From positions 868,001-932,000 of the forward strand of contig NC_007498.2 in NCBI RefSeq assembly GCF_000012885.1: a stretch of 64,000 bases of DNA, read 5' to 3'. Position 1 is the stretch's first letter. The number at the start of each line of letters is the position of its first letter. This DNA is from Syntrophotalea carbinolica DSM 2380 (GTDB lineage Bacteria; Desulfobacterota; Desulfuromonadia; Desulfuromonadales; Syntrophotaleaceae). Below are positions 16,757 through 22,678 of this stretch, piece by piece. The notes under the pieces were generated by a model. The model made no database searches. It had not been told where the DNA came from and saw only the letters and a list, made by a program, of their open reading frames with translations. The position numbers and the translations under genes are program-made.

Positions 16757-17614
16757 TTACTTGTCGATGTCTTGCATGAAGCTGGCGGCGATTTTCCGGT
16801 AGGTTTCGCTGGTCGCGGAATCCCCTTGGATGGCGATATACGGTTTGCCGCTGTCTCCGGCCATCACCATGGCAGGATCCATGGGGATTTTGCCGAGGAA
16901 CGGCGCTTTCATGCGTTCTGCAATCTGCTGGCCGCCGCCTGATTTGAAAATGTCGACGACCTCCCCACATTTCGGACAGGCAAAACCGCTCATGTTCTCG
17001 ATGATGCCAAGTACCGGCATTTCCAGGTGGCGGCAGAAGGTGATCGATTTCTGTACGTCCAGCAGGGCGACCTCCTGGGGCGTGGTAACGATGACCGCGC
17101 CGCTGCTTTGAGTCCCATCCAGCAGGGTCTGGACGGCTGTCATGGGCTCATCGCCGGTGCCGGGCGGGCAGTCGACGATCAGAAAGTCAAGATCCCCCCA
17201 TTCCACATCACGCAGAAACTGCTGGATAAGTCCTGTTTTGGCCGGTCCGCGCCACATCAGGGCTTCTTCGGCACCGCCGAGAAGAAACCCTACCGAGATG
17301 ACCTTCATATTGTGCAGATATTCCACAGGCAGCAGGCCATCCGGCCCGTTTTGCAGTTGACTGTCGTCCAGGCCTAACATTTTGGGGACGCTGGGCCCAT
17401 GCAGATCGATATCGAGCAGGCCGACGGCATAACCATCTTGTGCCAGGGCCAGGGCCAGGTTGACCGCTGTGGAGCTTTTGCCGACACCGCCTTTGCCCGA
17501 CATGACGAGAATTTTACGCTTGATGCGATCCAGGCGTTGTTTCATTTTTGCTTTCAATTCGCAGGCGCTCGGTTGATCGGAGGGAGTTTCAACGGATGAG
17601 GTACATGAACTCAT
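16757..17614 (-). CDS. Mrp/NBP35-family Fe-S carrier ATPase
   Basis: Mrp-type P-loop ATPases assemble and transfer 4Fe-4S clusters. The 285-residue protein has the deviant Walker A SGKGGVGKSS near residue 41, DIDLHGPS, DFLIVDCPPGTGDEP and the paired CPKC cysteines in FACPKCGEVVDIF that hold the bridging cluster. AAGGAAGG upstream of the ATG at 17614 sets the start; the frame is open to 17791 but without a ribosome site. It is the last gene of the minus-strand ORP-like cluster, separated from the NifX-like gene by a 219-base gap with a strong hairpin. Confidence 0.93.
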   Translation of the reverse strand: MSSCTSSVETPSDQPSACELKAKMKQRLDRIKRKILVMSGKGGVGKSSTAVNLALALAQDGYAVGLLDIDLHGPSVPKMLGLDDSQLQNGPDGLLPVEYLHNMKVISVGFLLGGAEEALMWRGPAKTGLIQQFLRDVEWGDLDFLIVDCPPGTGDEPMTAVQTLLDGTQSSGAVIVTTPQEVALLDVQKSITFCRHLEMPVLGIIENMSGFACPKCGEVVDIFKSGGGQQIAERMKAPFLGKIPMDPAMVMAGDSGKPYIAIQGDSATSETYRKIAASFMQDIDK

Positions 17615-17757
17615 AGCTTTTCGGTCCTTCCTTGGGGAAAGCACGCAGTGGGTGTCTTTGCACGGTTCGCACACAGGATGTTTTGCGAGTGGTTCATCCT
17701 GTTTTATGGCTCGCCCGCTTTCATGCGTTGCTTTCACCGGGTTTGATGTCTGGGCAG

Positions 17758-17783
17758 GCCAAAGCCCGAGGCCGGGCTTTGGC
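17758..17783 (-). repeat. Perfect intercistronic inverted repeat
   Basis: GCCAAAGCCCG (17758-17768) and CGGGCTTTGGC (17773-17783) make an 11-bp stem with a 4-base loop between a NifX-like gene and the mrp-like gene. No T tract follows in the transcribed direction, so it may be an mRNA-stabilising or partial-termination hairpin. Confidence 0.6.
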
Positions 17784-17833
17784 GATACCAAAATGATTTT
17801 AGAGATATGCGGTGCGGGTTTTTGCGCCAGCCA

Positions 17834-18172
17834 CTAGTGGTCGCAGTAGTTTTCACCAACCACCAGGGTGTTCTGCAGGTAATCGGTGACCAGTTTTTCC
17901 GGAGCCTCGGCTGCTGCGCCGACCACCACTTTGATGCCGTTGTCGGTGAACAGGTCCTGGGCTCGTCGGCCCATACCTCCGGCGATGATAACGTCGGCAC
18001 CAAGTTCGCCGAGCCAGCGGGGTAGTACTCCCGGTTCATGAGCGGGCGGTTGATGCAGGCTTTTGCCGGCGATAGATTTGTTGTCGGCACCAATTTCCAA
18101 CAAGACAAATTCTTCGCAGTGGCCGAAATGCTGACTGAGTTTTCCATGGACAAGAGGAATCGCGATTTTCAT
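17834..18172 (-). CDS. NifX/NifB-like (dinitrogenase iron-molybdenum cofactor family) protein
   Basis: A 112-residue single-domain protein with the family start MKIAIPLVHGKLSQHFGHCEEF and the core GADVIIAGGMGRRAQDLF. The family binds Fe-Mo or Mo-Cu-S clusters; in sulfate reducers the orange protein ORP belongs here. AAGGAGAT precedes the ATG. Its place between MinD-type ATPases and an Mrp ATPase suggests cluster assembly outside nitrogen fixation, as no nif structural genes are nearby. Confidence 0.87.
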   Translation of the reverse strand: MKIAIPLVHGKLSQHFGHCEEFVLLEIGADNKSIAGKSLHQPPAHEPGVLPRWLGELGADVIIAGGMGRRAQDLFTDNGIKVVVGAAAEAPEKLVTDYLQNTLVVGENYCDH

Positions 18173-18248: not shown

Positions 18249-19148
18249 TTACGCTTCTGCGAACAGGGCTTTTGCGACAGTGTCCCATAGCTGTCGCAGG
18301 TCCGCTGCGGCGGGAGCATGATCGAGTTCGACGATCGTTTTACGGGAAATCTGGGCGGCCGTGACTGACCGATCGTAGCGTATCAGGCCGCCTACGGGGA
18401 TTTTGCGCTGTTTTGCGGTCTCTTTGATTTGTGCCGTTACCTCGGGGTTGATGTCCCACTTGTTGATCGCAATGATGGTGGGGATATGGAAGTGCGCAGT
18501 CAGGTCGGCTACGCGCTGCAGATCGTGCAGCCCGCTCATGGTCGGTTCCGTCACCAGCAGGGCCAGATCGGTGCCGGTGATCGACGCCATGACCGGACAC
18601 CCGATGCCTGGCGAACCGTCGATGATGATGGTTGATCGCTGCTGTTTTTTTGCCAGTTTACGGGCTTCCTCGCGTACCAGGGAGACCAGCTTGCCGCTGT
18701 TTTCCTCGGCGATGCCGAGTCGAGCATGGATCATGGGGCCGACACGGGTGTCCGAAATATACCACTCGCCATTTTGCGCATCCGTAAACCGGATGGCTTC
18801 GGCAGGGCAGAAATGAGCGCAAACCCCGCATCCTTCGCATGCGGTACTGTCGATAGAGTAGCCAGATTCGGGGGAGCCGCTTTGGGTGTCCGGGCCACGC
18901 ACGGCCTCAAAGCGACATAGCTTCTGGCAGGTTCCGCACAATTGGCATTTGGCGGTCTCAATAAAGGCTTGTTTGCCGCCACTGAAAGGGTGGCTGGAGA
19001 GCGGTGTAGGGGGCAGAACCAGGTGCAGATCGGCGGCGTCGACATCGCAATCGGCCAGTACCACCTGGTCTGCCAGAAACGCAAGGGATGCCACCACCGA
19101 GGTTTTACCCGTACCGCCTTTGCCGCTGATAACCGTCAGTTGTTTCAT
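18249..19148 (-). CDS. MinD-superfamily ATPase with inserted ferredoxin domain
   Basis: A 299-residue ParA/MinD-type ATPase (ISGKGGTGKTS at the N-terminus, DGSPGIGCPV as Walker B region) with an inserted two-cluster ferredoxin domain at about residues 60-115: CQLCGTCQKLC and CEGCGVCAHFC. The ATG at 19148 overlaps the TGA of the upstream MinD gene (ATGA). A GTG three codons earlier is possible. Pairs of such proteins, each with ferredoxin inserts, occur in ORP clusters of anaerobes. They may couple ATP hydrolysis to cluster transfer or to positioning. Confidence 0.92.
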   Translation of the reverse strand: MKQLTVISGKGGTGKTSVVASLAFLADQVVLADCDVDAADLHLVLPPTPLSSHPFSGGKQAFIETAKCQLCGTCQKLCRFEAVRGPDTQSGSPESGYSIDSTACEGCGVCAHFCPAEAIRFTDAQNGEWYISDTRVGPMIHARLGIAEENSGKLVSLVREEARKLAKKQQRSTIIIDGSPGIGCPVMASITGTDLALLVTEPTMSGLHDLQRVADLTAHFHIPTIIAINKWDINPEVTAQIKETAKQRKIPVGGLIRYDRSVTAAQISRKTIVELDHAPAAADLRQLWDTVAKALFAEA

Positions 19149-20023
19149 GGGTGACACCTTTGCTGTGGGGAACCGGTATGTTTGGTTTGCTGCAGAAGCC
19201 GCTCGAGCAACGTTGTGAAGGGTTGGTTGAACGATGGTAAGGATTGCGCAATCAGTTCGCCGCGCGAATAGGCTTCAGCAGCTTTTCTGTTATCCGGCAG
19301 GCAGGCCAGCACAGGTATCCGCCGGCTGTTGCAATAGGCCAACGTGGCCTCGTCGTTTTCGGCGGAGCGATTGATGACAACGCCGCAGGGTATCCCGAGC
19401 AGTTGGACCATTTCCGCAGCAAGGGTGAGGTCATGCAGGCCAAACGGAGTCGGTTCGGTTACCAGCACCACAAAATCGCAATCGCGCAGACTTTCCACCA
19501 CGGGGCAGGAGGTTCCGGGGGGCGCATCGATCAACATGAGGTCGGTCTCCGGGGCCTGTTTTTTTACCTGATGTATCAGCGGGGGGCTTTTGGCCTCGCC
19601 GATATTCAGACGTCCTGAAACAAAATCCACCTGGCCCGCCTTGCCGATTTGGCACTGGCCGATTTCTCGTTCCCGCTCCGAGATACACTGCTGCGGACAA
19701 ATAAGCTGGCAACCACCGCAACTATGGCAAAGTTCGGGAAACAGAAGCACCTCTCCGGGTAAGCACAGCAAGGCATTAAACTGACAGAAGTGCGCACAGA
19801 CACCGCAATGGTTGCAGCGGGTCGGATCGATGTCCGGCACCGTGACATGCACCGTGTCATCGCTTGTGATATCGGGTCGTAAAAACAGGTGGCCGTTGGG
19901 GGCCTCAACGTCGCAGTCGATATAGGCGACCTGGTATCCTTGGCTGGCGGCCAGTTGGGCGAGGTTTGTCGCAACCGTTGTTTTGCCCGTACCGCCTTTG
20001 CCGCTGGCAATAGCGATTTTCAT
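19145..20023 (-). CDS. MinD-superfamily ATPase with inserted ferredoxin domain
   Basis: A 292-residue paralogue of the next gene downstream: MKIAIASGKGGTGKTTVATN, then ferredoxin motifs CNHCGVCAHFC and CHSCGGCQLIC with an extra Cys-rich stretch (CPQQC), then the DAPPGTSCPVVESL Walker B region. It ends four bases inside the downstream gene, so the pair is co-translated and may act as a heterodimer. The two proteins differ in length of the ferredoxin insert and in their C-termini, so they are not a recent duplication. Confidence 0.92.
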   Translation of the reverse strand: MKIAIASGKGGTGKTTVATNLAQLAASQGYQVAYIDCDVEAPNGHLFLRPDITSDDTVHVTVPDIDPTRCNHCGVCAHFCQFNALLCLPGEVLLFPELCHSCGGCQLICPQQCISEREREIGQCQIGKAGQVDFVSGRLNIGEAKSPPLIHQVKKQAPETDLMLIDAPPGTSCPVVESLRDCDFVVLVTEPTPFGLHDLTLAAEMVQLLGIPCGVVINRSAENDEATLAYCNSRRIPVLACLPDNRKAAEAYSRGELIAQSLPSFNQPFTTLLERLLQQTKHTGSPQQRCHP

Positions 20024-20131: not shown

Positions 20132-20491
20132 TCACACTCCTCCTGTGGCATCCATTTCACTGGCTTCTTTAAGCTGCCCCGCCTTAAAAGCTTCGAGAGC
20201 TTCGAGAGCGGTTCCTTTGGCGCCGTGAAAAATACGGATTTTTGCTGCCTGCAGGGAGGCGAAGGCTTTCGGTCCGATGGCTCCGGTAAGCAGGGTTTCG
20301 GCCTGCTGGTCCGCAACCTTTTGCGCCGCCTGAATGCCGGCGCCATGGGCCGTGTCGCGGCCGGCGGCGTTGTCGATGCATTCCCAGGCGTCGTTGCTGT
20401 CGTCGTGGATGAGCAGCCAGGCTGCACGTCCAAAGCGCGGGTCTACGGCGCTGTCCGGGGTGTTGCCCTGGGCGGTGATGGCAATTTTCAT
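20132..20491 (-). CDS. NifX/NifB-like cluster-binding protein
   Basis: A 119-residue NifX-family protein (MKIAITAQGNTPDSAVDPRFGRAA to LLTGAIGPKAFASLQAAKI). Unlike the NifX-like protein at 17834-18172 it has a C-terminal tail with EALEAFKAGQLKEASEMD and no cysteine. AAGGAG lies before the ATG. It starts 3 bases after the stop of the upstream Cys-tailed NifX paralogue, so the two are probably translated from the same message. Confidence 0.87.
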   Translation of the reverse strand: MKIAITAQGNTPDSAVDPRFGRAAWLLIHDDSNDAWECIDNAAGRDTAHGAGIQAAQKVADQQAETLLTGAIGPKAFASLQAAKIRIFHGAKGTALEALEAFKAGQLKEASEMDATGGV

Positions 20492-20493
20492 GT

Positions 20494-20937
20494 TTATTTT
20501 CTCCTTTTGCAGTTGGGGGGGAGCAAAGGGGGGCATCCCATGGGGTGTTGCACGCGGCAACAACTTGTGAAGTTGCTGCATCCGTTGATCATTGCTTCTC
20601 GATGCTCGGAATCCATCCATTGGTTTAAAACCGCGTCGATATCACCGCGGACGCCCCAGATTACCCACAGGCCTGCAGCTTCCAGGGCGATTTGAAAGCG
20701 TGGATGAATGCCGCCGCACAGGATCCCGTCCACATGCTGTTGAAGCAGCCAGTTCGGCAAGTTGGGACCCGTGTCCGGCTCCCATGTATGTTTAATTACC
20801 TTGTCTACCCGATGGTTGTGGTCCTGGATATCGACGAAAACGAAGCTCCGAGCGATGCCAAAACGCGGCATGATCCTGTTTTCATAACAGGGCAGGGCCA
20901 GACGATAGGTAGCTTCCGAAGGGTAACGTGGTTTCAT
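20494..20937 (-). CDS. NifX-like protein with cysteine-rich C-terminal tail
   Basis: A 147-residue protein whose core (YRLALPCYENRIMPRFGIARSF, then VDGILCGGIHPRFQIAL) fits the NifX/DUF-type cluster-binding fold. The C-terminal tail adds five cysteines (residues 120, 126, 127, 135, 143) that could bind a metal. The start is uncertain: in-frame ATGs lie at 20937 and 20967 and neither has a clear ribosome site. It is the first gene behind the GTTGC/GCAAC repeat region and so the likely target of the sigma-54 activator encoded upstream. Confidence 0.75.
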   Translation of the reverse strand: MKPRYPSEATYRLALPCYENRIMPRFGIARSFVFVDIQDHNHRVDKVIKHTWEPDTGPNLPNWLLQQHVDGILCGGIHPRFQIALEAAGLWVIWGVRGDIDAVLNQWMDSEHREAMINGCSNFTSCCRVQHPMGCPPLLPPNCKRRK

Positions 20938-21062
20938 GACAGATATACTTATCACATACCGTGCCATGTCCAAGAATGGGATATGTTACGTTAAAGTGTA
21001 GAAAAAACAGCTATTTAGGGAGGGACTTGGGTTTTTGTGAGTGAGGGTGGGGAAGGGCTTGC

Positions 21063-21158
21063 GTGTTGCATATGCAACGCCTTCAATGGAAAGGTCTATA
21101 ATATCGAATGTTTGGCGGTGTTGCAGGGGGTGTTGCGTGTTGTTGCTGGTGTTGCAAC
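21063..21158 (-). promoter_or_regulatory. Candidate enhancer sites of the ORP-like cluster (GTTGC/GCAAC repeats)
   Basis: Between the activator stop and the first NifX gene lie a perfect 14-bp palindrome GTTGCATATGCAAC (21065-21078), the palindrome GTTGCAAC (21151-21158) and further GTGTTGC units at 21118, 21130 and 21149. Their distance from the first gene (about 100-220 bases) suits upstream activator sites of a sigma-54 regulator. The binding protein is inferred from position only. Confidence 0.55.
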
Positions 21159-21160
21159 GC

Positions 21161-22495
21161 TTAGGGGTGTTGGTCCAGGCGTTTGAGCCATCGCCAGAGG
21201 GTGCTGCGGTTAATCCCCAGTTGTTGGGCGGCGGCTGTTCGGTTGCCTTTGCAGCGTGCCAGCACGGCATATAACTGGGTGGCCGATGGCATCCCCGGCT
21301 GTTTTTGACCGTTGGGTGTGCAGGTAGGGGGCGCCACCCGTATGCCGGGGGGGAGGTGATCCGGTTCTATGACGTCCTTGCGGCAAAGGATAGCGGCACG
21401 CTCAACGAGGTTGAGAAGTTCCCTGACGTTTCCCGGATAATCATAGTCGAGTAATAACGACATGGCCTCAGGGGAGAATCCACGCAGTTTTTTACCATAG
21501 ATGCCATTGAAGCGATCCAGCGCCATATCGAGCAGCAGCGGGATGTCTTCACTGCGTTCACGCAAGGAAGGGATGCGCAGCGGGACGACATTCAGGCGAA
21601 AGTAAAGATCCTGGCGAAACTGTTTCTGCTCGACCATCGCTTCGAGATTCTGATGGGTGGCGGCGAGAAAGCGCACATCGGCCTTGCGGGGTCGACGGGC
21701 GCCAAGGGGCTGGTATTCCCGGTTTTCCAGGACTCTCAGCAGTTTTACCTGCAAGGGCAAGGGCAAGTCGCCGATTTCATCCAGAAAAAGGGTGCCGCCT
21801 TCGGCTTGTTGCAGGCGTCCGGGACGGTCTTCGGTGGCTCCGGTATAGGCTCCTTTGCGTGCGCCGAAGATTTCGGCTTCCAGTAACTGTTCAGGCAGGG
21901 CTCCGCAGTTCAGGATCACCAGGGGATGTCGGCTGCGCGGGCTGAGATTGTGCAGGGCTCGTGCGAATAGCTCTTTGCCGGTGCCGCTGTCTCCCTGTAG
22001 CAATACCGTTGCGTTGCTGGCCGCAATATCAGGCAGCACGTCGAAGAGTTTGCGCATGGCCGGATTGCGGCTGACCATGTCCTGGAAACGGTATTTTTCG
22101 GTGACTTCCCGTTGCAGGGCATGGATGCGGCTTAAATCCCGAAAGGTTTCGACACCGCCGACCGGCTCCCCCTGGGCATCACGGAGCACGGAGGCCGATA
22201 CCGAGATGGGAACTTCGCGATTGTGGCGATCGAGTATGTCGATTTCCCGGTTTTCCACATTCAAACCGGTGTCCATGGCTTTTCGCACCGGACATTCGGA
22301 AAAGCAGATCGAACTCCGAAAGATTTCGCAGCAGCGCTGGCCTAGAGCCTCCTCACGGCTAAAGCCGGTGATAAGTTCAGCCGCATGGTTGAACCAGGTG
22401 ATGTGCATGTCGCCATCTACGGTAAATACGCCGTCGGCAACACTGTCGAGGATGGTGGCCAGGTGGTTTTGCAGGTTGTGTGGATGCGTGCTCAT
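21161..22495 (-). CDS. Sigma-54-dependent activator with PAS sensor
   Basis: A 444-residue enhancer-binding protein: PAS domain (about residues 12-125) that contains cysteines 55, 56, 64 and 68; AAA+ domain with Walker A GDSGTGKE and GAYTGA, a Phe-to-Tyr form of the sigma-54 contact loop GAFTGA; and a Fis-type helix-turn-helix (CKGNRTAAAQQLGINRSTLW). No receiver domain is present, so the PAS domain should sense a ligand or redox state. The ATG at 22495 gives the shortest sensible start. It lies directly upstream of the NifX/MinD genes in the same orientation and probably controls them. Confidence 0.9.
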   Translation of the reverse strand: MSTHPHNLQNHLATILDSVADGVFTVDGDMHITWFNHAAELITGFSREEALGQRCCEIFRSSICFSECPVRKAMDTGLNVENREIDILDRHNREVPISVSASVLRDAQGEPVGGVETFRDLSRIHALQREVTEKYRFQDMVSRNPAMRKLFDVLPDIAASNATVLLQGDSGTGKELFARALHNLSPRSRHPLVILNCGALPEQLLEAEIFGARKGAYTGATEDRPGRLQQAEGGTLFLDEIGDLPLPLQVKLLRVLENREYQPLGARRPRKADVRFLAATHQNLEAMVEQKQFRQDLYFRLNVVPLRIPSLRERSEDIPLLLDMALDRFNGIYGKKLRGFSPEAMSLLLDYDYPGNVRELLNLVERAAILCRKDVIEPDHLPPGIRVAPPTCTPNGQKQPGMPSATQLYAVLARCKGNRTAAAQQLGINRSTLWRWLKRLDQHP

Positions 22496-22678
22496 AGATG
22501 CAGCATAGCCGGTTTTGGGTTTCGGGTCTAGGGGGTGGTGCGGAAGGAATTCGCGGCGTTGCGAGCCGGCCAGGGGCACCAGGGCTTTAGGGTCAACTCC
22601 GCACTTTGTACACGGGGCAGCATTGGGCGGGCGGACAGATTGTCCCGGTCATGGCTGTTGCGTTACCGGATATGAAAC

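Follow-up and report, generated by a model that had tools for sequence, protein, structure and literature searches.

The best comparison for the element described here comes from the ORP system of Desulfovibrio vulgaris, where the PAS domain of the activator OrpR is reported, in a study of 2021, to carry a redox Fe-S cluster. Passages of PMC3897727, which cite Fievet 2011, place palindromic sites of this ORP activator (DVU2106) at -131 and -88, with IHF sites between them and the promoters, and an entry in PMC4641369, based on Desulfovibrionales, lists DVU2106 (GAFTDA) with its targets. Here we describe a comparable locus of Syntrophotalea carbinolica DSM 2380, whose genome is a single contig of 3,665,893 bp (3.67 Mb), using a stretch of 64,000 nucleotides, referred to as the window, whose positions are given below unless genome coordinates are stated. 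From its sequence, a 94-bp array of short repeats in this window is very probably a two-module sigma-54 enhancer (UAS) for the activator encoded immediately upstream.

All genes of the cluster share the minus strand, and no divergent operon pair of the OrpR kind is found among them. They run in the order nfn-type oxidoreductase genes, activator, a 223-bp non-coding stretch that separates the activator stop (21161) and the NifX start codon (20937), and then the target operon. The latter begins with NifXa (20494-20937), a Nitro_FeMo-Co (PF02579) protein, followed by a second such protein, NifXb (20132-20491), two ferredoxin-containing MinD/CbiA-type ATPases of the ORP cluster (19145-20023 and 18249-19157), a third Nitro_FeMo-Co protein, NifXc (17834-18172), and an Mrp/NBP35 (NUBPL) Fe-S carrier ATPase (16757-17791). 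The activator (21161-22579) is a single-component protein consisting of PAS, AAA+ (GAYTGA) and Fis-type HTH domains, with the recognition helix NRSTLWRWLK; its longest reading frame begins at a GTG (22579), and an ATG at about 22495 is the likelier start. It has the sigma-54 interaction domain next to the HTH, and rpoN was found in the genome. The initial annotation had taken it for the activator of an ORP cluster, and its linkage to NifX, ferredoxin-ATPase and Mrp genes agrees with this, but the protein belongs to a clade separate from the Desulfovibrionaceae OrpR-type activators. NifX is the conserved partner of this activator class, and in seven relatives (L075, L076, L077, L078, L080, L083 and L084) no ferredoxin-ATPase homologue was found near NifX; the core of the regulon may therefore be NifX rather than ORP.

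Seven 5-bp half-sites, GTTGC or GCAAC, lie between 21065 and 21158 in the non-coding stretch. The palindromes and the repeated GTGTTGC within 96 bases that had been remarked on behind the activator gene were both recovered, the former as GTTGCATATGCAAC (21065-21078) and GTTGCAAC (21151-21158), the latter on the plus strand at 21063, 21118, 21130 and 21149, with an additional GTTGC at 21142. These elements form two modules. The distal one (21120-21158, minus strand) lies just behind the activator stop codon and holds four phased half-sites, which read on the minus strand as GTTGCAAC followed by GCAAC at 21142-21146, 21132-21136 and 21120-21124, in steps of 9, 10 and 12 bp. The proximal one, at 21065-21078 and without strand, is the palindrome GTTGCATATGCAAC, of the form GTTGC-N4-GCAAC, centred 105.5 bp upstream of the -24 GG of a predicted promoter. 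The coding strand is thus laid out as activator stop, GTTGCAAC, three GCAAC, 41 bp, GTTGCATATGCAAC, about 100 bp, the promoter TGGCACGGTATGTGAT, 13 bases and the NifXa ATG.

Since the region is rich in GTGTTG words, one could regard the array as an artefact of chance or of simple sequence in non-coding DNA rich in GTTG. Among 5000 shuffled versions of the intergenic region none contained seven half-sites (mean 0.78), and the GTTGC-N4-GCAAC palindrome appeared in 0.06% of them. Elsewhere in the window there are at most four half-sites per 96 bp, and 200 dinucleotide-shuffled versions of the window gave at most 5, and typically 3, in their richest 96 bp. The motif is also conserved across the order and, with altered spacing, across the phylum; this conservation already refutes the artefact, to which we assign a negligible probability. 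Across the 3.67 Mb genome there is one copy of the exact palindrome, GTTGCANNTGCAAC, so a genome-wide regulon built on it was dismissed.

Conservation before orthologous clusters had been named beforehand as a check, its lack counting as refutation, and the motif is indeed conserved there. For 47 activators that share this helix class we counted, over the 450 bp behind each, a mean of 5.7 half-sites per locus, against mostly 0.45-1.5 for eight control words in the same regions (2.8 for the partly overlapping CGTTG), and GTTGC-N4-GCAAC is present in 27 of these 47 relatives. No N3-N5 palindrome was found within 600 bp behind the activator in 16 of the 47 loci; several of these carry one elsewhere, and some (L098, L196 and L205) have no palindrome anywhere in the sequence examined. 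Loci from across the order show this arrangement again, with the distal array of half-sites first, then the proximal palindrome, a gap of 84 or about 106 bp to a sigma-54 promoter of the form TGGCAY-N5-TTG, and the first NifX gene. All four distal half-sites are invariant in three congeners, and in the four-congener footprint alignment the spacers between them have diverged, so that the sites before orthologous targets are kept amid faster-evolving surroundings. The distance from palindrome centre to -24 GG is bimodal in the 27 relatives, either about 84 bp (the mode) or 102-110 bp, about two helical turns apart, and places the dyads within the range of some 70-200 bp upstream of a -24/-12 promoter.

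In eight genomes (G140, G132, G058, G144, G028, G075, G022 and G017) the array lies elsewhere in the locus than immediately after the activator gene. Most of these displaced arrays precede a NifX operon or a promoter-like site, the latter lying behind array and palindrome in G140, G132, G058, G028, G075 and G022. The element thus follows the target promoter and not the activator gene. Two further arrangements were observed among the relatives. In G028 a second exact GTTGCAAGTGCAAC lies in a non-NifX position (L143:5408-5421), possibly a further target of the activator. In G050 (L014/L073) a NifU/IscU-like gene (MYTEKVMDHFANPRNVG...) separates the activator from the NifX genes; it follows immediately after the array and a CGGCAT-N5-TTGGA promoter-like site, and the NifX of this locus has a promoter-like site of its own as well.

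The half-sites of relatives stand in either orientation and also as direct repeats, which fits DNA dyads and not a single RNA fold. This bears on the idea that the array acts at the RNA level, as a structured transcript, a terminator or a small RNA encoded between activator and operon. As RNA, 21050-21170 folds a little better than shuffled sequences (z -2.3), as would be expected of any palindrome array, but the palindrome stem has five pairs only, no intrinsic terminator with a GC-rich stem and a T run was found on this strand, and no Rfam match was obtained at E<=1. We consider an RNA element highly improbable here and return to the enhancer.

The sigma-54 promoter predicted for NifXa, TGGCACGGTATGTGAT, lies at 20951-20966 on the minus strand, with its -24 GG at 20964-20965. 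Its -12 element, TGTGAT (GTGAT), is weak in comparison with the consensus; the aligned position is conserved as TGGCAY-N5-NTGNN in relatives. Counted from the first G of the -24 GG, the start codon of this first NifX-like gene (20935-20937, minus strand) follows at 28 nt, predicted to be about +4, and this spacing is 27-29 nt in 21 of 27 same-class relatives (loci L002-L036). It is 28 nt also in four loci with a different helix (TLWRK, see below), provided that translation starts at the ATG preceding the conserved MKVAIP core. The exceptions L020, L022 and L027 have 52-54 nt together with a GGAGA-like sequence. The usual sigma-54 geometry would put the NifX start codon at about +3 to +5, too near the 5' end for a ribosome-binding site to fit, and the spacing predicts a near-leaderless sigma-54 mRNA for NifX; the sigma-54 promoters of hsp20 in these genomes are followed by ordinary leaders carrying AGGAGG. 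A search for IHF sites between enhancer and promoter returned one-mismatch matches only, AAACAGCTATTTA (21005-21017) and TATCGAATGTTTG (21102-21114), none of them convincing; such matches number 7 in 4.3 kb where 3.5 are expected.

The sites also vary together with the recognition helix of the activator linked to them. The TLWRW helix (WRW), to which the present activator belongs, goes with GTTGC-N4-GCAAC in the 27 of 47 loci mentioned above; TLWRK (WRK), from other lines of the phylum, goes with GTTGC-N6-GCAAC, of which nine sites were found in 4 of 17 loci; and with the Desulfovibrionaceae helix KDTLRR (LRR) the commonest dyad is GGGCG-N7-CGCCC, represented by 15 sites in 12 of 33 loci. The N4 palindrome was found in none of the 17 WRK or 33 LRR loci. 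Naive Fisher tests, which ignore kinship, give 2e-5 for N4 (WRW vs WRK) and 6e-6 for GGGCG (LRR vs WRW). The WRW activators form a single clade with 100% support, apart from the LRR, WRK and FRx proteins, and since helix classes largely coincide with clades, the association of site and helix amounts to a few evolutionary events and not to 100 independent ones. In Desulfovibrionaceae (L165-L180 and others), GGGCG-N7-CGCCC is a candidate OrpR-type site, located upstream of TGGCAC..TGC promoters and behind GAFTDA activators. One feature common to all classes is the PAS cysteine pattern C-x8-C-x3-C; all 105 of the 105 activators compared have it, as would suit a sensor of the Fe-S or redox kind.

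These associations bear on whether another DNA-binding protein, either a different activator of the genome or a global regulator, could own the array and control the same operon. The genome does encode other sigma-54 activators, and the array of the one linked to hsp20, TTGCGACGTCGCAA, is related and contains half-sites resembling GTTGC, which makes cross-binding imaginable. On the other hand, both the spacer and the half-site of the palindrome vary with the helix of the linked activator, and the absence of the exact palindrome from the rest of the genome speaks against a global regulator. A second ORP-like cluster of the same genome (L067; G000:C1:1843000-1856000) is accompanied by a paralogue of the activator (47%) with the different helix HKTTLFRKMKKLG (TLFRK), which the tree places on the OrpR side, and neither GTTGC sites nor the palindrome were found at this locus. 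Ownership by another protein is therefore unlikely in our estimate, and the neighbouring activator is favoured.

Arrays of three GCAAC are found at only three genomic positions, namely at this locus, within the different motif of the hsp20-linked activator, and at about 2.98 Mb. The array at 444939-444978 of the genome was considered as a second target of the ORP-linked activator and rejected, because relatives show there the different dyad TTGCGACGTCGCAA of the hsp20-linked activator. That array (L235:1500-1700, or G000:C1 ~444933-445130, and L241-L259) is itself conserved in many relatives, where it follows the gene of another sigma-54 activator (helix HRATLYRYMKKLG) and precedes the TTGGCAC-N5-TTGTT promoter-like site of an hsp20/chaperone operon. 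Both systems share the position directly behind an activator gene and then a promoter-like site, but the hsp20-linked one differs in its own dyad, in helix HRATLYRYMKKLG, in its hsp20/chaperone target and in its ordinary AGGAGG leader.

Taken as an enhancer, the element could work as follows. Through the Fis-type HTH, activator dimers would bind the GTTGC half-sites: the proximal palindrome, some 105 bp above the -24 element, would take one dimer, and the distal array, whose four half-sites lie about one helical turn apart, would take further subunits. The array would raise the local concentration and nucleate the AAA+ hexamer; in NorR, three sites are needed to build the hexamer. The PAS domain with its three invariant cysteines would sense a signal, perhaps the redox or Fe-S status that D. 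vulgaris OrpR is reported to sense, and through DNA looping the hexamer would contact RNA polymerase-sigma-54 at TGGCACGGTATGTGAT. The output would be the NifX/ferredoxin-ATPase/Mrp operon, translated from a near-leaderless mRNA whose start is deduced from promoter geometry. The initial annotation had proposed enhancer sites from the spacing to the first structural gene, and this proposal is strengthened by an element that is conserved, stands as far from a conserved sigma-54 promoter as enhancers do, moves with its target and changes with the recognition helix. A broader scheme, in which a phylum-wide NifX/ORP activator family combines a helix-site specificity code (WRW/GTTGC-N4, WRK/GTTGC-N6, KDTLRR/GGGCG-N7-CGCCC) with a phased enhancer in two modules and a promoter at a fixed 27-29 nt ahead of the NifX start, giving a near-leaderless mRNA, is offered tentatively, as plausible without yet being probable.

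The kind of element is ordinary, and its DNA code is apparently unrecorded before. It would provide a concrete, testable code for the activator of a NifX/ORP Fe-S operon outside Desulfovibrio, the first as far as the readable literature shows. The natural variants in helix, spacer and half-site make the protein-DNA specificity of sigma-54 activators directly testable, and the regulon becomes predictable in any Desulfuromonadales genome, being apparently a single locus here. The short leader, if real, would make this a clean example of near-leaderless translation under sigma-54 control.

Judged from passages of PMC3897727 and PMC4641369, the locus shares with orp1/orp2 of D. vulgaris Hildenborough (DVU2106/OrpR, sigma-54, IHF) a single-component activator linked to NifX/ferredoxin-ATPase/Mrp genes. 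The same passages put the D. vulgaris sites at their -131 and -88 positions relative to start sites, and the centres here lie at about -130 or -109; both are palindromic and upstream of -24/-12 promoters. As described there, the D. vulgaris orp operons are divergent and have proven IHF sites, unlike the single strand of this locus, and their activator has GAFTDA instead of GAYTGA. The helices and sites differ likewise, KDTLRR with GGGCG-N7-CGCCC in Desulfovibrionaceae versus NRSTLWRW with GTTGC-N4-GCAAC here, in separate clades. The idea that our activator is simply OrpR was rejected on the tree, in which the GAYTGA, WRW clade stands apart from the Desulfovibrionaceae OrpR-type proteins. The D. 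vulgaris orp DNA was not found via the published IHF-site sequences among the loci returned from 395 phylum and 288 family genomes. Judging from the GGGCG-N7-CGCCC dyads of Desulfovibrionaceae relatives, a palindrome other than GTTGC-N4-GCAAC seems to serve the D. vulgaris-type family. The earlier remark that no such motif was described for an ORP regulator appears to hold for GTTGC-N4-GCAAC, which seems new, but not for palindromic OrpR sites as such, already published for D. vulgaris according to passages of PMC3897727. In short, the concept of a palindromic OrpR site is known, and the GTTGC-N4-GCAAC motif, the two-module layout and the spacer code appear new in a comparison that covers the readable literature and the sites of Desulfovibrionaceae relatives. 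In a wider frame, the locus resembles the enhancers of the NtrC family (NtrC, NorR, NifA, FleQ/FlrA), which consist of dyads, often several, 70-200 bp above a sigma-54 promoter (compare PMC4641369); it is unlike them in its GTTGC half-site, its 4-bp spacer, and a distal array at about one helical turn with mixed direct and inverted orientation.
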